From an uncultured Clostridia bacterium (lineage in GTDB: Bacteria; Bacillota; Clostridia; Christensenellales; CAG-314), in assembly GCA_947625725.1 (NCBI GenBank), contig CANQPI010000011.1, positions 1 to 52,791 on the forward strand: a DNA stretch of 52,791 nt, written 5' to 3'. Position 1 is the stretch's first letter. Each line of letters begins with the position of its first letter. The notes under the pieces are model-generated. The model ran no database searches. It worked only from the letters and a program-made list of their open reading frames with translations, and was not told the DNA's origin. The position numbers and the translations under genes were made by a program. Below are positions 9,275 through 39,780 of this stretch, piece by piece.

Positions 9275-9390
9275 GCTGTTTGTCTAAAAAAGCGAGGCTA
9301 TATGTCAAATGTTGGATAGAAAACCAAAAAGTAGTTGATTGCTTTGACTTTTTTAGTTCTGATTGTTTCCTAACATTATTTCGTTGTTGC

Positions 9391-9559
9391 TGTAAAATGA
9401 AATTACCACATTATTCCAATATACAAAGTAATACGCACGGTCTATTTTGGTAGATTGATATGTCTGTTTTCAATGTGTGTATTACCATTGAAATAGTGTG
9501 GTGGCTATCGAGGCACGCGTCTACAAGTGTCGTGACGGTAGTTGCGGCACTTTTTTTTT
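9391..9559 (+). ncRNA. Putative structured RNA, copy 1
   Basis: Homologous along its length to 37830-37990; both start with TGTAAAAT. Closing helix: TTACCACA (9403-9410) with TGTGGTGG (9497-9504). Inside it, hairpin A is GGTCTA/TAGATT and hairpin B is TTTCAATG/CATTGAAA with a loop starting TGTG. In copy 2 hairpins A and B have different bases but the same pairing, which supports a conserved RNA rather than chance. A conserved single strand (CTATC, AGGC) leads into a terminator at 9525-9559. No known riboswitch class was recognised. It ends 11 bases before the poly-G promoter of the LRR lipoprotein gene. The short ORFs crossing it are not conserved. Confidence 0.55.
9525..9559 (+). terminator. 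Intrinsic terminator of RNA copy 1
   Basis: AAGTGTCGT pairs with GCGGCACTT (G-U pairs included), followed by a run of Ts ending at 9559. The same terminator with matching sequence lies at 37963-37990. Confidence 0.75.
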
Positions 9560-9570
9560 ATTCCAACCTA

Positions 9571-9600
9571 TTGACAAAATGCCAGGGGGGGGGGTACAAT
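9571..9600 (+). promoter_or_regulatory. Poly-G spacer promoter (putatively phase-variable)
   Basis: TTGACA at 9571-9576 and TACAAT at 9595-9600 are separated by 18 bases, of which 9585-9594 are ten consecutive Gs. One G fewer would give the optimal 17-base spacing. Homopolymer G tracts between -35 and -10 are known to cause slipped-strand phase variation in other bacteria (Neisseria porA). It drives the lipoprotein gene at 9655. Confidence 0.75.
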
Positions 9601-9654: not shown

Positions 9655-12600
9655 ATGAAAATCAAACGAATTTTGTTGATAGCAATCGCGTTCATTTTGA
9701 TCGTAGCCTTGTCAATATGTGCGTTTGTCGGTTGTAACAACGGCGACAACCCGAACAATCCGAGCGGTAATCCGGACACGGGAAGCGGTAGCGGTAGCGG
9801 TACAGGCACAGGCACAGGCACAGGTACAGGCTCAGGCACAGGCTCAGGCTCAGGTTCAGGTACAGGAAGTGGTACAGGGACAGACGGCGTTCATCAACAC
9901 ACATTCTCACAAAATTGGTCGAGCAATGACGAATACCATTGGCACGACGCGACTTGCGACGACACCACCGAGCGTGCCGACGTTGCAATGCACACTTTCA
10001 AGCAAACGGGTAGAGTGGAACCCACCTGCACGGAGTCGGGCAGTATAACCAAGCAATGCACGGTATGTGGCAAAACCGTTACGGAAACCATCAATTCAAC
10101 AGGGCATAGTTTCTCCGATCAATGGTCGAGCGACGACGAATACCATTGGCACGACGCGACTTGCAATCACAATGTAAAGAGCGAACCATTGGCGCACAAT
10201 TACGTAAACGGCGTTTGCATGACCTGCCAACACGCGCATATAAATCATACTTTCGGAAATTGGATCGAAGATATCCCCGCAACGCAGGAAAGCGAAGGAC
10301 ATCGCTATCAGGAATGTGCATGCGGAAAGAGAAACGAGGAAACCATTCCCATGCTTTCCCCGTTTACCTTTGCGCCAAGCGGTAACGGGCTTGCCGTTAC
10401 GGGCTATACCGGTACACAGACGGATATAATCGTTCCTGCCGAACATGATGGTAAGAAAGTTATCGCCATTGCCGAACAAGCATTTTATTACAGTGACATT
10501 ACTTCTGTTTCTCTACCCGACAGCATAAAGGAAATCAGCAATTACGCATTTGGCTACTGTACGAAATTGAAAACAGTAAATATCCCACATTGTACCCGTA
10601 TCGGCGATTCGGCGTTTATCGGTTGTGCCGCTTTACGGGAGATTACTCTCCCCGAAGATATTGTAACGCTTGGCAATGCTCTTTTCAACTATTGCAGTGC
10701 ATTGCAAAAGGTCACAATTCTCGGAGGAACTCTCGGAAGCAATACCTTGTTCGGCGGTACGGCGATTCAAGAGATAATTGTCGGTGACAAAGTAACATCT
10801 GTCGAGCAATACGCCTTTGTCGCTTGCACAAATTTGAAGTATCTTACTCTGCCTCGTGTGGAAACAGGGGTTTCTTTCTTAAATTACTACTTCAACTTGA
10901 AAAAACAAACGTATACTTATCGTGGCACGGGGGCTGATGAAGTGGAACCGTATGAAATCAATGTATACTCCGTTGGTAATAAAGTCTTCGGTCTTCCCAA
11001 AGATGGAACCGATTGGTACTGTCTTAAAGAGGCAATAGAGGTAAATGGAAACGTGTATCATTATAGTGGTAAGCCCGTCAGTGTTTCTTCCTATAAAGAA
11101 TATTTCGATGTCACGGTGAACGTCTACTATCGTAAACCTGCGTATTGGACGGCAGAATTTTACTACTATCCCGAATGTTCCTTGGAGCGTTTAACTATCA
11201 CTAATCAACTTATCTCCACCTATGATGATGTTTTTGAGGGGTGCGGTTGCAGTTTGGATATTTGGGAAAAATTTCCCGTTTCCACGCTTGAAGTAAAGGG
11301 CGCGACGGAAGTTTATATCGACGAATTTTCGTGGAGCGATTACACGCTTTACGTGACGCGCACGGATGGCTACACAGAAACACATCCCCTTTTGGACTAT
11401 ATTTCTTTCGAAGAAACCGACTCATTCGAAACAGCAGGGGAAAACACCGTTACAGCGGTCTTTGAAGATCAGACAATTACGCAAACCATCACTCTGAAAC
11501 TCCATACCTTCGACGACGCGGTGTTCGAATCAAAAGAATGTATTTTTAACGGTTCAATACAGTCGCTTGAAGTGACGGGTGTACCCGATGGGACAAAAAT
11601 CGAATATTCCGGAAACGGGCAGACGGAACCGGGAGAATATACGGTGACGGCAACGCTCACCAAGGAGTATCACGAGCCGAAAACGCTCACGGCAACGCTG
11701 AAAATCTTCAAGTCGGAATATGAAATCCAATATGTACTTGGGCTTGAAAATGCAGAAAACAACAACCCATCAACTTACATAACCGACGGTGAGGATATAA
11801 TATTGCAAGATCCCGTTCGCCCCGGTTGGGAATTTTTGGGTTGGTACACCGAAGAAACGTTTAATAACAAAATAACTTCTATCAAGGGAAACGCTCATAC
11901 GGATTACACCCTGTATGCAAAGTGGCAAACAGTGTTCACTTTGAAAGGGGACATGATAACGGGACTGACAGAGTACGGAGAAAAGCAGACGACGCTCATC
12001 ATTGACAAAACAATCAACGGAGTGAGTGTGACTTCGATTGGGGAAAAGGCATTTTATAATTGCTCCAATTTGACGGAATTAACAATTCCAAGTACTGTCA
12101 CAAGCATAGGCAACTACGCTTTCTACTGTTGCACCAATTTGCAAACGATAACGTTTGACGACGACAGTCAAGTGCAAAGTATAGGTGACTCCGCTTTCTG
12201 TGGTTGCAGTAACTTGACGGAAATAACAATTCCAAGCACGGTCACAAGTATAGGCGACGTCGCTTTTTATGATTGCACCAATTTGAAAAACGTTTACTAT
12301 GGAGGAACGATAGAGAGTTGGTGTGGAATTACGTTTGACAATTATTATGCTAACCCAATGTATTATGCAAATCACTTTTTAATGAAACAGGGTGGCGATG
12401 GGCAGGAAGTTACGGAAATAGAAATTCCCGAAAACATTACCGCAATAGGCGATTATCAATTCCGCAAGTTCAAAATTTCGTCCGTCACTATTCCCAGCAA
12501 CATAACAAAAATCGGTGAACAGGCGTTCGATGACTGTGACGCTTTGAAAGAAATCACTTTTGCCGAAAATATTCATCTAACCAATATAGGGGGAAGTGCT

Positions 12601-14853
12601 TTTAGCGGTTGCGACAATCTGAAAAATGTTTACTATGGCGGAACAGTCGAAGATTGGTGCGGAATTGAGTTTGGCAATGAATATGCCAATCCAATGTGCT
12701 GTGCAGTCAATTTCTTTATGAAACAAAGCGGTGATTGGCAAAAAGTGACAGGAAAAATCGAGATTCCCGAAAGCGTAGAAAAAATCGGCAATTATCAATT
12801 TTACGGTTTCAATAACATAACGTCGGTCACAATTCCCGGCACGGTTACGAGCATAGGCGAAGAGGCTTTCCGTAGTTGCAGGAACTTGACGGAAATAACA
12901 ATTCCAAGCACCGTCACAAGCATAGGTGGCTACGCTTTCGCCGGCTGTAGCCAATTAACAATTTATTGCGAGGCGGCGAGAAAACCGAGCGGCTGGGATA
13001 GCAGTTGGAACTACAGCAGCCGCCCCGTTGTGTGGAATTGCTGTGGTATCACAACAGTTGGCGGCGTTGTCTACGGACTCCAACGTGACAACGTTGCAAC
13101 CGTGGCCAACCGGACAACCGATTTGCCTGCACATGTAACAATTCCGCAAGCAATAGAATTCGACGGAAAACAATTTACAGTCACAAGCATAGGCGACTAC
13201 GCTTTCGACATATGCTCCAATCTGACGGAAATAACAATTCCAAGTATGGTCACAAGCATAGGCAAGGATGCTTTCTACAATTGCACCAATTTGCAAACGG
13301 TAACGTTTGAGGGCGACAGTCAATTGCAAAGCATAGGCGACAATGCTTTCGGCTATTGTAGTAGCTTGACATCGATTATAATTCCAAGCACGGTCACAAG
13401 CATAGGCAAGGATGCTTTCTACAATTGCACCAATTTGCAAACGGTAACATTTGAAAGCGAGAGTCAATTGCAAAGCATAGGAGAATTCGCTTTCAGTTGG
13501 TGCGAGAATTTGCAAACAGTAACTTTTGAAGGTGACAGTCAATTGCAAAGCATAGGCGAATATGCTTTCCAGAATTGCAGCAGGTTGCAAACGGTAACTT
13601 TTGAAGGCGACAGTCAATTGCAAGGCATAGGTGCTTCCGCTTTTCGCTATAGCGGTCTAACATCAATCACAATTCCAAGCACCGTCACATGCATAGGCGA
13701 ATACGCTTTCCAAAATTGCAGCAATTTACAAACAATAACGTTTAAGGGCGACAGCCAATTGCAAAGCATAGGCGAATACGCTTTCCAAAATTGCAGCAGG
13801 TTGCAAACGGTAACTTTTGAAGGCGACAGCCAATTGCAAAGCATAGGCGAATATGCTTTCAATGGTTGCATTGGGCTTACAAGCATCACCATTCCAGAGA
13901 AAGTGACATCTATCGACAACAATGCATTCTCCGGTTGCACAAACCTTGCCATAGTTACTTGGAACGCAATCAATTGCAAGTACGCCGGTACATATGTTGA
14001 TACCATATTCAAAGACTGCACAAATCTTACAACAGTAATTTTCGGTAGCGAGGTAAACATTATTCCTGTGTGTGCATTTTTCAAGTGCTACGGTTTACAA
14101 AAGATAACTATTCCCGCAAGTGTGACGTCTATTGGCATATCTGCATTCTCGGGTTGCAACAATCTTGCCACGGTGACATTTACAGACGGCAGTTTATTGC
14201 AAACTATCGACTGCTACGCATTCTACCAATGCAGTAGTTTGCAAGAGATAACCATTCCCGAGAAGGTATCATTTATCGGCGACAATGCTTTTGAAGGCTG
14301 TACAAACCTTGCCATAGTTACTTGGAACGCAACTGATTGCACGTCTGTTGGTAAATACGTGTCAAGTAATAATTATACCATCTTCCGCAGTTGCACAAAT
14401 CTTACAACGGTAAATGTCGGCGCAAATGTTACATCTATTCCTGCGTATGCATTCCACGGTTGCGACGGCTTGCAAACGGTAACGTTTGAGGGCAACTGTC
14501 AATTGCAAAGCATAGGCAACTACGCTTTTCGCTATAGCGGTCTAACATCAATCACAATTCCAAGCACCGTCACAAGCATAGGCGATAACGCTTTCTACTA
14601 TTGCACCAACTTGCAAACAGTAACATTTGAGAGTGACAGTCAATTGCAAAGCATAGGAGGTCGGGCTTTCTGTGGTTGTAGTAACTTGACGGAAATAATA
14701 ATTCCAAGCACGGTCACAAGCATAGACTACTACGCTTTCATCGGCTGTAGCCAATTAACAATTTATTGCGAGGCGGCGAGAAAACCGAGCGGCTGGGATA
14801 GCAGTTGGAACTACAGCAGTTGCCCCGTTGTGTGGGGATACAAACAACCATGA
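9655..14853 (+). CDS. Giant BspA-like LRR surface lipoprotein
   Basis: A 1732-residue protein. ATG at 9655 is chosen because it follows AGAAGG and begins a lipoprotein signal (MKIKRILLIAIAF, lipobox-like FVGC at about residue 28-31); the frame is open further upstream but crosses the promoter. Order: signal; Gly-Ser/Gly-Thr linker of 17 dipeptides (43-76); two His/Cys-rich modules of the type HTFS-W-HWHDATC plus a CxxC segment (about 80-230); LRR_5 (BspA-like) repeats; a beta-rich middle; an InlB-type beta repeat ending LYAKWQ (about 690-760); then a long second LRR block. More than 30 units of the type SIGxxAF-C-NL-ITIP are visible. A 79-bp segment ending each of two LRR blocks is repeated exactly 1800 bases apart. 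Family members are surface adhesins or matrix-binding proteins. The promoter has a poly-G spacer. Confidence 0.85.
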   Translation: MKIKRILLIAIAFILIVALSICAFVGCNNGDNPNNPSGNPDTGSGSGSGTGTGTGTGTGSGTGSGSGSGTGSGTGTDGVHQHTFSQNWSSNDEYHWHDATCDDTTERADVAMHTFKQTGRVEPTCTESGSITKQCTVCGKTVTETINSTGHSFSDQWSSDDEYHWHDATCNHNVKSEPLAHNYVNGVCMTCQHAHINHTFGNWIEDIPATQESEGHRYQECACGKRNEETIPMLSPFTFAPSGNGLAVTGYTGTQTDIIVPAEHDGKKVIAIAEQAFYYSDITSVSLPDSIKEISNYAFGYCTKLKTVNIPHCTRIGDSAFIGCAALREITLPEDIVTLGNALFNYCSALQKVTILGGTLGSNTLFGGTAIQEIIVGDKVTSVEQYAFVACTNLKYLTLPRVETGVSFLNYYFNLKKQTYTYRGTGADEVEPYEINVYSVGNKVFGLPKDGTDWYCLKEAIEVNGNVYHYSGKPVSVSSYKEYFDVTVNVYYRKPAYWTAEFYYYPECSLERLTITNQLISTYDDVFEGCGCSLDIWEKFPVSTLEVKGATEVYIDEFSWSDYTLYVTRTDGYTETHPLLDYISFEETDSFETAGENTVTAVFEDQTITQTITLKLHTFDDAVFESKECIFNGSIQSLEVTGVPDGTKIEYSGNGQTEPGEYTVTATLTKEYHEPKTLTATLKIFKSEYEIQYVLGLENAENNNPSTYITDGEDIILQDPVRPGWEFLGWYTEETFNNKITSIKGNAHTDYTLYAKWQTVFTLKGDMITGLTEYGEKQTTLIIDKTINGVSVTSIGEKAFYNCSNLTELTIPSTVTSIGNYAFYCCTNLQTITFDDDSQVQSIGDSAFCGCSNLTEITIPSTVTSIGDVAFYDCTNLKNVYYGGTIESWCGITFDNYYANPMYYANHFLMKQGGDGQEVTEIEIPENITAIGDYQFRKFKISSVTIPSNITKIGEQAFDDCDALKEITFAENIHLTNIGGSAFSGCDNLKNVYYGGTVEDWCGIEFGNEYANPMCCAVNFFMKQSGDWQKVTGKIEIPESVEKIGNYQFYGFNNITSVTIPGTVTSIGEEAFRSCRNLTEITIPSTVTSIGGYAFAGCSQLTIYCEAARKPSGWDSSWNYSSRPVVWNCCGITTVGGVVYGLQRDNVATVANRTTDLPAHVTIPQAIEFDGKQFTVTSIGDYAFDICSNLTEITIPSMVTSIGKDAFYNCTNLQTVTFEGDSQLQSIGDNAFGYCSSLTSIIIPSTVTSIGKDAFYNCTNLQTVTFESESQLQSIGEFAFSWCENLQTVTFEGDSQLQSIGEYAFQNCSRLQTVTFEGDSQLQGIGASAFRYSGLTSITIPSTVTCIGEYAFQNCSNLQTITFKGDSQLQSIGEYAFQNCSRLQTVTFEGDSQLQSIGEYAFNGCIGLTSITIPEKVTSIDNNAFSGCTNLAIVTWNAINCKYAGTYVDTIFKDCTNLTTVIFGSEVNIIPVCAFFKCYGLQKITIPASVTSIGISAFSGCNNLATVTFTDGSLLQTIDCYAFYQCSSLQEITIPEKVSFIGDNAFEGCTNLAIVTWNATDCTSVGKYVSSNNYTIFRSCTNLTTVNVGANVTSIPAYAFHGCDGLQTVTFEGNCQLQSIGNYAFRYSGLTSITIPSTVTSIGDNAFYYCTNLQTVTFESDSQLQSIGGRAFCGCSNLTEIIIPSTVTSIDYYAFIGCSQLTIYCEAARKPSGWDSSWNYSSCPVVWGYKQP
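9781..9882 (+). repeat. Six-base tandem repeat coding a Gly-Ser/Thr linker
   Basis: Seventeen degenerate units of GGN-(A/T)C(A) type, six bases each, encode alternating Gly with Ser or Thr. Unit gain or loss keeps the frame, so linker length could vary between the lipid anchor and the LRR domain. Confidence 0.8.
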
Positions 14854-14892: not shown

Positions 14893-15345
14893 ATGGAACT
14901 ACAAGAACTCAGAGATGTTTTGGGCAATAAAAGCCAAAAATTGTTTGGAAAAGACATTGCAAGAACTGCCGAAGGAAAACTCGGTCAATTTCTCAAAGAC
15001 GGCAAAAACGATTGCTCGGCATTTGAATTTAACGGCGTATACATTATATTTGACGACAATGAACAAATACTATACATAGGCGAATCGTACAAAAAGAGCG
15101 TAAGAGAACGTCTTTACTTGCAAGTTAAATGTAACATAACCAACAGTACGCTTGCAAAACACTATTCCCTTTGCAAATTAAAAAAACCATACGAGAAATT
15201 GTCCGAAGAAGATTTGAAACAACTTAAAACGGACATACAACAATACAATGTGTTGGCAATAGAAGAAGTAGATTTGGAAACGCGCCTGATAACGGAAATG
15301 AAACCCAAGTGGAACAAGGCGGGTAACAAAAAACAATGTGAATAA
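14893..15345 (+). CDS. Stand-alone GIY-YIG nuclease-family protein
   Basis: A 150-residue protein. ATG at 14893 follows AAAGGAG. The centre shows the GIY-YIG core as GVYIIF and then LYIGES (about residues 47-64), followed by VRERL, where the family's catalytic Arg lies, and a conserved Glu in DLETRLITEMKPKWN near 120-133, a metal-binding position. The N-terminal ~40 residues form a small helical extension. It sits 39 bases after the LRR lipoprotein gene and may be cotranscribed. Related small GIY-YIG proteins are mostly uncharacterised; a DNA-cutting or repair role is possible. Confidence 0.75.
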   Translation: MELQELRDVLGNKSQKLFGKDIARTAEGKLGQFLKDGKNDCSAFEFNGVYIIFDDNEQILYIGESYKKSVRERLYLQVKCNITNSTLAKHYSLCKLKKPYEKLSEEDLKQLKTDIQQYNVLAIEEVDLETRLITEMKPKWNKAGNKKQCE

Positions 15346-15616
15346 AACAAGACAGTAGGGACTGTCGCATTAAGCGGCGACCCATTTCAGTTGCGACATA
15401 AGAGCGAATGTCAGCCCAAATGGTCCGAGTGATCGGATTTGTCCCGAGCGGAGTCGAGTAAGTGTTATTCGACATCAAACCAATCTGCACTTTTCCTACG
15501 GCGAAAAATTTCAATATCTTTTGTTGGAAATTTTTCCCCACTTGCCAAAGTTTGCTTGCGTCACGGTGGCGGCGGTGGTATAATAGGGTCGCATCAAAAA
15601 AAAGGAGATGAAGTTT
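15346..15616. other. Intergenic region with hairpins
   Basis: No gene seen. GACAGT/ACTGTC forms a small hairpin at 15350-15365. GAAAAATTTC (15503-15512) pairs perfectly with GAAATTTTTC (15527-15536). The minus strand is open for about 100 codons, but nothing resembles a protein family and no ribosome site precedes it. The stretch may be an intergenic repeat element. Confidence 0.45.
15556..15584 (+). promoter_or_regulatory. Promoter of small membrane protein gene
   Basis: TTGCGT, 17-base spacer, TATAAT at 15579-15584, about 30 bases before the start codon. Confidence 0.6.
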
Positions 15617-37800: not shown

Positions 37801-37829
37801 TTGACAACTCGTTGCCAAATCAGTGTAAG
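37801..37829 (+). promoter_or_regulatory. Possible promoter of RNA copy 2
   Basis: TTGACA (37801-37806), 17-base spacer, TGTAAG. The -10 is weak. It would start transcription at the beginning of the conserved RNA. Confidence 0.35.
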
Positions 37830-37990
37830 TGTAAAATTAGGCTACCGCATTGTCATTTTAATAAGGCAAATCACACATACTCTATCGGTAGAGTTAGGCG
37901 TCTTTGAACTTTGTGTGGTTTGCAAAGTGACAGTGTGGTAACTATCAAGGCGCATATCCTACAAGTGTCGCGGAGTTGCGGCACTTTTTT
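37830..37990 (+). ncRNA. Putative structured RNA, copy 2
   Basis: Second copy of the element at 9391-9559. Closing helix: TACCGCA (37843-37849) with TGTGGTA (37934-37940). Hairpin A is ACTCTA/TAGAGT with loop TCGG; hairpin B is ACTTTG/CAAAGT with a loop starting TGTG. Compared with copy 1, paired bases change on both sides of hairpins A and B while pairing is kept. The terminator at its 3' end and the poly-G promoter 22 bases later are also shared. Confidence 0.55.
37963..37990 (+). terminator. Intrinsic terminator of RNA copy 2
   Basis: AAGTGTCGC pairs with GCGGCACTT (one wobble), followed by Ts. Confidence 0.8.
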
Positions 37991-38012
37991 GTTGCTATTT
38001 TCTCTTTTTTCG

Positions 38013-38039
38013 TTGACAACGTTGGGGGGGGGGTATAAT
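38013..38039 (+). promoter_or_regulatory. Poly-G spacer promoter (putatively phase-variable)
   Basis: TTGACA (38013-38018) and TATAAT (38034-38039) are only 15 bases apart, with ten Gs at 38024-38033. Two more Gs would give optimal spacing, so the sequenced state is predicted to be weak or off. Confidence 0.75.
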
Positions 38040-38085: not shown

Positions 38086-39780
38086 ATGAAAACAAAACGC
38101 ATTTTGTTGACGTTTTTGGCGGTTGCGGTAGTTATTGCCGCATTGACGGCGGCGGTCGCTTGCACACCCAAAGAACCGAAACCGTCGGAGCATACCCACA
38201 CTTTTTCCGACGAGTGGGAGTACGACGCCGACAGTCATTGGCACAAGGCAACCTGCGGAGATACGACGGAAGTGAGCGACAAAGCGCCTCATACGTTAAA
38301 CGACGAAGGCAAATGTATCTATTGCCCATATCAGGCAGTTTCGCACACCGTAACGTTTGTTGCCGATGGTGAAACCGTGCAAAGTCTGTCCTTTTGGGAA
38401 GGTACAACCGTTACAGAACCGCAAGTTCCCGACAAACTCGGTTACACAGGCGTTTGGGAGAACTACACTCTCGGCAAAAGTGATCTCACGGTAAATGCGG
38501 TGTACACGGCGATAGAGTACGATATAACGTTCCTCTATGACAGAAGCGTAGGCGAATTTGCAGATGAAGACATCACCAAGTACACAATAGAGGGTCTGTC
38601 TTTGCACACTTTTTACAGTGCGGACAAAACGCACACGGCAAGTTGGCAAGACCAAAACGGAACGATCTACACAAACGCTATCCCCGAGGGTACAACGGGT
38701 GATCTGGTGCTGACCGCTGTTTGGAAATTATATTACGATTTTTCTGAAAACAGTCATCACACCTGGGCGGCAAACGGAAAATGCACTATATGCGGACAGT
38801 TGAAAGAGCCGTATAGCGAAACGGACGGACAAACAAAACCCTATACGTTCGACGGCGACAAATTGTTGTTCGGCATGTATCCTCAAAGCGAAGTAAAAGA
38901 TACAGCCATGCGCTCTTATCTTTTGTATGAGATAAATTACAAAATGCCGACGGTTGACGACCTTAACGGTTGGACGGACTACGGCTATTACATACAGGGC
39001 GAAATACAAAGTTACATGTGGTACATAGACGTCGCGTTTCGGGGCGACACGTATCGCGGAGTTTACTTTACAAGTTACCGTCCGTTTTACACGGTAAATC
39101 ACAGTGGTTTTGTGGACGACAGTAGCAGTAAAGCGTCAAACAGTTACCAAGACGACAACGGTTACACAATCGACGAAGTGTATTGGTTCAAATTCGAGCC
39201 CATCACTTGGCGTATACTCCAACAGGAAAACGGCAAAGCCCTTGTTATGGCAGACCTTATCTTAGACAGCCAGCAGTACTACCACGAAAAAGAGGTTCGC
39301 ACCATAAACGGAGAAACGGTTTATCCAAACAACTACAAAGAAAGCGATATACGCCATTGGTTGAACAGTACTTTTTATGACGCGGCTTTCGACGAGTTGA
39401 GCAAACAACTCATCATCACCACAGAAGTAGACAACAGTGAAAACTCAACGACAAATAGCGGTCATGATAGCAACCCATACGTTTGTGAAAACACGCTCGA
39501 CAACATCTTTCTGCTGAGTTATCGGGACATAAGCAACACGAATTACGGCTTCGACGGTGCCGATAATCGCAAGTTGAAAACGACCGCCTATGCGCAATGT
39601 CAAGGAGCGCGCACATCTAACGACAGTATGGACAGGGGGTGCGGCTGGTGGATGACGAGGTCGCCGTATATTTCCGCAAAACATCAGTGGTGCATATATT
39701 CCTACGGACCGATAAACGTCAATTACAATGTTTACAACTCCGATGGCGGCGTTGTTCCTGCGTTGCAAATTCAGTTATAG
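38086..39780 (+). CDS. Surface lipoprotein with InlB-like repeats and DUF6273-like domain
   Basis: 564 residues. ATG follows AAGGAGG. The signal MKTKRILLTFLAVAVVIAAL with TAAVACT gives a lipid Cys near residue 26. Next come a His/Cys module HTHTFSDEWEYDADSHWHKA (about 36-55), closely like those in the giant LRR protein, two InlB-type beta repeats (about 85-215) and a CxxC segment (CTICGQ). The C-terminal half (about 255-564) matches the DUF6273 pattern: PITWRIL, LDSQQYYH, DIRHWLNSTFYDAAF and WWMTRSPY. This domain is common in clostridial surface proteins; its function is unknown. Expression is predicted to be phase-variable from the poly-G promoter. Confidence 0.82.
   Translation: MKTKRILLTFLAVAVVIAALTAAVACTPKEPKPSEHTHTFSDEWEYDADSHWHKATCGDTTEVSDKAPHTLNDEGKCIYCPYQAVSHTVTFVADGETVQSLSFWEGTTVTEPQVPDKLGYTGVWENYTLGKSDLTVNAVYTAIEYDITFLYDRSVGEFADEDITKYTIEGLSLHTFYSADKTHTASWQDQNGTIYTNAIPEGTTGDLVLTAVWKLYYDFSENSHHTWAANGKCTICGQLKEPYSETDGQTKPYTFDGDKLLFGMYPQSEVKDTAMRSYLLYEINYKMPTVDDLNGWTDYGYYIQGEIQSYMWYIDVAFRGDTYRGVYFTSYRPFYTVNHSGFVDDSSSKASNSYQDDNGYTIDEVYWFKFEPITWRILQQENGKALVMADLILDSQQYYHEKEVRTINGETVYPNNYKESDIRHWLNSTFYDAAFDELSKQLIITTEVDNSENSTTNSGHDSNPYVCENTLDNIFLLSYRDISNTNYGFDGADNRKLKTTAYAQCQGARTSNDSMDRGCGWWMTRSPYISAKHQWCIYSYGPINVNYNVYNSDGGVVPALQIQL

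Follow-up and report, generated by a model that had tools for sequence, protein, structure and literature searches.

Our analysis of a single stretch of DNA, hereafter the window (52,791 nucleotides, the whole of contig C11 in a genome of 1.68 Mb and 39 contigs), leads us to a family of structured leader RNAs that probably act in cis as attenuators, each unit with its own promoter, and that at some loci are overlaid by an independent, probably phase-variable promoter with a poly-G spacer. Computation reveals the family itself, its conserved helices, the positions of its promoters and terminators, the genes it precedes and two alternative pairings that overlap.

We suggest that transcription begins at the base of a long hairpin in two parts (P1, then a junction, then P2), whose apical loop would pair over about 16 bp with the linker 3' of the hairpin (pairing X). 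As long as X holds the linker, the terminator would form and the gene would stay off; with X absent, the linker would pair with the upper 5' arm and the loop of the terminator (pairing AT) ahead of synthesis of the 3' arm, and RNA polymerase would read on into the gene. We infer that X excludes AT in the cell and that the trigger, which could be a ligand, a protein, an RNA or the rate of transcription, acts by disturbing X. At a subset of loci, both cassettes of the window included, a poly-G promoter 3' of the terminator would drive transcription independently of the leader, and slippage of its G tract would shift the spacing between the -35 and -10 elements, probably switching the promoter.

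Both cassettes of the window, copy 1 (W1) and copy 2 (W2), are genuine: each contains an RNA of about 160 nt with its own promoter, an intrinsic terminator, a promoter of the form TTGACA-N-G10-TAYAAT and a lipoprotein gene. Their parts are as follows.

9370-9398, plus strand: promoter of the W1 RNA unit, with a weakened -35 (CTAACA-17-TAAAAT), at the distance from the RNA start usual in the family
9402-9560, plus strand: W1 leader RNA unit, a covariance-model match of 160.8 bits and one of the four seeds of the first model
9403-9415, plus strand: 5' strand of W1 P1, pairing by fold with 9492-9504 in a helix that covaries
9449-9481, plus strand: W1 apical region with the X strand; GTAGAT (9450-9455) can pair with GTCTAC (9519-9524), the remainder of X being weak
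9503-9524, plus strand: W1 linker with the AT and X strands; for AT, GCTATCG (9504-9510) pairs with CGGTAGT (9536-9542)
9525-9559, plus strand: W1 intrinsic terminator, a stem (9525-9552) followed by a T tract
9571-9600, plus strand: W1 poly-G promoter, TTGACA-N8-G10-TACAAT, with a spacer of 18 and ten Gs at 9585-9594
9655-14853, plus strand: W1 surface lipoprotein gene (1732 aa), with a lipobox-like N-terminus, BspA-type LRR and a List_Bact repeat
37801-37837, plus strand: promoter of the W2 RNA unit, probably broken, with TTGACA and TAAAAT 25 nt apart
37841-37994, plus strand: W2 leader RNA unit, with a shortened terminator loop and the AT pairing lost
38013-38039, plus strand: W2 poly-G promoter, TTGACA-N5-G10-TATAAT, with a spacer of 15 and ten Gs at 38024-38033
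38086-39780, plus strand: W2 lipoprotein gene (564 aa), DUF6273

The initial annotation had described a structured RNA and terminator, set 11 bases before a promoter with ten Gs in its spacer, upstream of a giant surface lipoprotein gene and repeated 28 kb away; the RNA's own promoter was absent from it. Much of this description is borne out. The RNA folds below its shuffles in both copies (z -3.7 for W1, -5.5 for W2), the Ts of the W1 terminator end at 9559 and TTGACA begins at 9571, leaving exactly 11 bases (9560-9570), and W2 repeats the parts in the same order. The word giant suits the product of the W1 gene, which matches LRR_5 in Pfam with an E-value of 3.6e-258, but not the far shorter product of W2. 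The pattern TTGACA-N8-G10-TACAAT with up to three mismatches occurs once in the window, compared with 0.00 times in 100 shuffles. The W1 leader has an X pairing of about -12 to -13 kcal/mol, against a family mean of about -16 to -17, and an AT predicted in the nascent RNA with a probability of 0.57. In W2, the spacer of the RNA's own promoter exceeds by 8 nt that of the three other copies aligned from this genome, and AT is lost because the terminator loop is shortened; read-through control is therefore probably defunct there and the leader decayed, which would leave the gene dependent on its poly-G promoter. Elsewhere in the window, a small ORF at 14893-15345, directly 3' of the LRR lipoprotein gene, appears GIY-YIG-like by eye (GVYIIFDDNEQILYIGES), and upstream of the ORF at 15608 lies an interrupted G-rich spacer (15555-15590, GGTGGCGGCGGTGGTATAAT), perhaps a poly-G promoter in decay.

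A DNA search of the same genome yielded two further RNA units, on contigs C5 and C3, neither of which has a poly-G promoter: the terminator is followed at once by the ribosome-binding site and then the gene. When 41 genomes of the taxonomic family were searched with a first covariance model (R1), built from the four copies, 17 had matches, each a member of the window's own genus (one of the 17, the match at locus L102 in genome G005, was later dropped as false), with up to 8 paralogues per genome; the 16 genomes of ten other genera of that family had none. The initial annotation had named a lack of further homologues with covariation as its refutation; homologues and covariation are both abundant. 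With a broader model built from 61 sequences, 107 of the 396 genomes searched in the order have matches, the window's own included, as do 37 of 142 genera, compared with none of 397 other genomes of the phylum, a search that doubles as a specificity control; both searches were run with stricter filters, at which weak matches are lost. The gap in the sister genera suggests loss or transfer. In the window's own genome the later model brings the total to 6 RNA units, of which only W1 and W2 are followed by a poly-G promoter; the sixth (L251:932-1148, or G000:C2:101431-101647) is longer than the others and lies before a lipoprotein-like gene. Scanning named genomes by pattern turned up 27 stretches, of which 26 are in assembled genomes (MAGs) of uncultured Clostridia and 1 in a Clostridiales MAG; the 'Lapin' isolate names among the 26 probably point to rabbit gut.

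The sets used below derive from these matches: 74 from one search less 6 (E-values 0.0035-0.06) leave 68, and 67 from another less 2 in antisense leave 65, in total 133, from which removal of the false L102 gives the 132 units counted for gene context, promoters and tandem arrays. Leaving out L087, L097 and L201 gives the 129 sequences used for pairing clusters, conservation, folds, leader ORFs and the overlap of X and AT, while an early comparison of X with the antiterminator covered 67 genus sequences; 60 places outside the genus were taken up from among the matches listed for the broader model. The window has no match in Rfam 15 at the gathering threshold. In laxer scans of locus L002 and nine loci from the order, other families matched below threshold, and some of these matches overlap the unit, the best of them being mir-312 (E 0.17); a tmRNA match lies outside the unit. 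Among the literature matches listed, no title describes the RNA family, and the main text of PMC8040213 contains none of lipoprotein, Christensenella, DUF1273 or zinc ribbon; the family may be in its tables of 3161 candidates. A viral origin of the RNA was set aside, as one type-A and one type-B pattern had no exact match in a viral collection. We also dropped a Cas9/tracrRNA idea, suggested by a slight likeness of the unit to a single-guide RNA: Pfam Cas9-BH is silent in the window's own genome, though equally so in 14 control genomes.

Each unit appears to be a self-contained transcription unit. A sigma-70-like promoter scores at least 9 in 115 of 132 units, compared with 7 of 132 when shuffled, and in 112 the best -10 keeps the same spacing to the RNA start, which would place that start at the foot of P1. 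For 40 type-A sequences, the proposed structure, with X and the AT core counted in, has 96.3% of its cells paired, and 25 of its 54 pairs change on both sides, giving a covariation score of 0.430 against 0.170 in shuffles (0/500) and 0.06-0.10 when the structure is slid. Of these double-sided changes, 21 fall in P1, P2 and the terminator, 4 in X and none in the AT core, and one X pair fails in 21 of the 40 sequences. A conserved, covarying structured domain of the kind expected of riboswitches thus lies in the 5' leader, the transcription of the leader being deduced from the promoter and gene positions. Tandem units occur at 12 loci of the 132-unit list. At five of these, all in the genus (L059, L067, L071, L080 and L082), every unit has its own promoter, by eye, and a type-A unit (TACCACATT) comes first while a type-B unit (TTGCGACAC or similar) adjoins the gene; at L059 a third unit type stands between the two.

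Could the hairpin-linker fold be an aptamer, in which a small molecule stabilizes X? Such a true riboswitch, itself a special case of the attenuator model, is possible though tentative. It would account for a complex conserved fold with its own expression platform, for the several paralogues per genome (up to 8) and the tandem units at 12 loci, for the junction between P1 and P2, often AATA (in 88 of 129 junction windows, shuffled mean 41), and for the 47 columns in an alignment of 106 sequences where one base reaches at least 75%. By eye, however, most of these columns belong to P1, the AT strand of the linker and the terminator, with only a junction ATA and an apical T, GG and A conserved elsewhere; the sequence of P2 and X differs between subtypes, and the downstream genes share no common metabolic theme. 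The short conserved motifs at the junction and apical loop would equally suit a protein that binds either one and so governs termination, as would the use of the unit on unrelated accessory genes; we regard this second special case of the attenuator model as rather doubtful.

The predicted pairings would give the attenuator model its switch. AT is kept between subtypes with different letters: across 38 linker clusters its energy is -15.2 kcal/mol with the unit's own linker and -9.1 with swapped linkers, own linkers beating the swapped means in 36 clusters and reaching the best 5% of swaps in 23 (p 1.5e-11). For X, where the signal is weaker, the energies are -15.9 and -12.9 kcal/mol, with 26 of 38 clusters beating the swapped means and 6 within the best 5% (p 3.8e-6). 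Since the AT core shows no double-sided change within type A, the case for AT lies in the comparison between types. Of 129 sequences, 127 have three or more linker bases claimed by both X and AT, and in all 129 AT takes up three or more bases of the terminator stem, so that on paper X and AT are mutually exclusive, as are AT and the complete terminator. These predicted pairings would link a terminator/antiterminator platform to the structured domain, as in a riboswitch. When the nascent RNA is cut before the 3' arm of the terminator, AT is predicted in 127 of 129 sequences, the failures being L100 and W2; swapped linkers also give a nascent pairing above 0.5 in 144 of 304 cases, and the measure alone is therefore weak. 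Folding of the full-length RNA favours the terminator in 103 of the 129 and AT in 24, and AT would therefore have to act kinetically. Geometry argues that X formed with P1 and P2 both intact demands a sharp bend at the junction. A longer antiterminator, made of P1' and the 3' arm of the terminator, is predicted in types A, B and C, but it is weak in L088 and L094, and for this reason we prefer the shorter AT.

A start codon follows the terminator within 40 nt in 83 of 132 units; in the other 49 no start was placed within that distance, and 11 of them have no gene within 450 nt. By regular-expression labels, which count one gene repeatedly in tandem units, the next gene encodes a lipoprotein in 50 units, a protein with an N-terminal zinc ribbon in 18, a SLOG/YpsA-like protein in 17 (by eye, L201 is wrongly in this class and two L214 rows labelled 'other' look SLOG), a membrane or secreted protein in 11 and other proteins in 25, with none found in 11. 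A Pfam scan of seven proteins found zinc ribbons in L048, YpsA in L190 (PF06908, E 4.5e-27) and LRR_5 in L052, and no match in four, including L199, which looks SLOG-like by eye. Before SLOG-like genes (L183:2962-3152, L190:1548-1714, L199:496-727 and similar) the start codon often stands where the T tract ends, with a Shine-Dalgarno-like AAGGAG or AAGGGAG inside the loop or 3' arm of the terminator, which could therefore also hide the ribosome site.

The poly-G promoter is an element separate from the RNA. Across the genus, 102 such sites occur in 19 of 25 genomes, and the reversed pattern, as a control, gives none; by a wider pattern the window's own genome has 12, some of which stand without an RNA. 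The initial annotation had treated RNA and poly-G promoter as one unit, but in 60 of 67 genus units the RNA is followed by no poly-G run, and 95 of the 102 sites are not behind any unit of the first model. Nor do the two layers of control that it had implied, read-through past the RNA terminator and slippage of the G tract, lie in series: the poly-G promoter is 3' of the RNA terminator, and the leader is therefore bypassed. In the remaining seven units (two each in G000 and G020, one each in G013, G019 and G024) the G run starts 24-34 nt behind the RNA, compared with a chance expectation of about 0.005 units (from 102 sites on both strands of about 38.7 Mb, and a stretch of 60 nt behind each of 67 units), a contrast that is overstated because both elements favour like kinds of gene. 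A similar stretch with an interrupted G run lies behind the units at L051 and L063. Of 41 sites with gene context, 28 lie before a lipoprotein, secreted/membrane or zinc-ribbon gene and 9 before others, two of which resemble class II aldolase, with none found for 4. One poly-G promoter sequence recurs on contigs C10, C30, C33 and C38 of the window's own genome, three times within about 1.2 kb of a contig end, and this suggests that a repeated lipoprotein locus broke the assembly.

All these sites carry a long homopolymer inside the -35/-10 spacer, as phase-variable promoters do. Two copies of one promoter core in genome G012, with different upstream flanks, have 10 and 9 Gs, which suggests slippage, and to judge from the sequences slippage is plausible as a switch. 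The tract might instead be a constant trait of one class of promoters, structural or operator in nature, with no phase switch, a reading that we hold to be rather unlikely. Its length is tightly centred, at 9 or 10 Gs in 92 of 102 sites, and it also precedes a class II aldolase-like gene (by eye), with 9 Gs at L144 and L151; runs of 9-10 Gs are, however, generally unstable, and the G012 difference and the range of spacers (10-20, with 16-19 in 86 of 102) speak against this reading. In two genomes (L246 and L249, in G017:C4 and G023:C1) a 9-G promoter stands before a gene that is by eye a class II fructose-bisphosphate aldolase; aldolase is a housekeeping gene and an odd site for a phase switch.

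Two further readings concern the RNA, and both fare worse than the attenuator. If the units were stand-alone genes for trans-acting small RNAs, with their neighbours there by chance, one would expect the promoter and terminator that each possesses, also in tandem; the co-directional start codons close behind the terminator in 83 of 132 units and an AT pairing kept between types make this improbable. Leader-peptide attenuators, in which the ribosome stalls, have a terminator/antiterminator layout like that of the RNA units, a layout common to such leaders, but we reject this reading as exceedingly improbable, since leader ORFs are rarer than in shuffles (among 129 leaders, 17 have a start codon with a Shine-Dalgarno-like site and 5 or more codons of ORF, where shuffles give 36, and 67 have an ATG ORF of that size, where shuffles give 99).

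The cis attenuator with its own promoter thus remains our preferred reading. Beyond it, we lean towards the broader view that an order-wide, undescribed class of self-contained, stackable RNA switches, each with a promoter, a three-way switch of loop, linker and terminator, and a gene, governs surface lipoproteins and SLOG proteins of uncultured gut Clostridia and is overlaid by slipping poly-G promoters that replace decayed leaders at some loci. A covarying RNA family lacking an Rfam 15 match is present in roughly one in four of the genomes sampled from the order and in none of the 397 sampled elsewhere in the phylum, and by its position it would control surface lipoproteins together with zinc-ribbon and SLOG-like proteins. 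If the switch holds true, its trigger would expose a signal common to the controlled genes. Where an RNA switch and a poly-G promoter meet at one gene, that gene may have two separate ways of being turned on, and the overlay would show loci shifting from regulated to stochastic control.

Like the transcription-terminating riboswitches and attenuators of Gram-positive bacteria, the RNA units combine a 5' leader with mutually exclusive terminator and antiterminator, between which an upstream domain could decide. In contrast to these, they are without an Rfam 15 match, they are proposed to use a long hairpin's apical loop as anti-antiterminator, and they carry their own promoter at a fixed distance. 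T-box leaders (RF00230) likewise alternate between terminator and antiterminator; the loci scanned, however, gave no T-box match even at laxer E-values, and the genes downstream of the units are not amino-acid related. Some units precede YpsA-like genes of the SLOG/YpsA family (PF06908), and among the literature matches listed no paper joins DUF1273, SLOG or YpsA with a leader RNA. Phase-variable promoters with homopolymeric spacer tracts are known from Neisseria porA/opc, Treponema tpr and Bordetella fim, and they resemble the poly-G sites in placing a homopolymer between -35 and -10, often before genes for surface proteins. The poly-G sites differ from them in belonging to uncultured gut Clostridia, in numbering about 100 within one genus and in standing, seven times, right behind an attenuator-like RNA.
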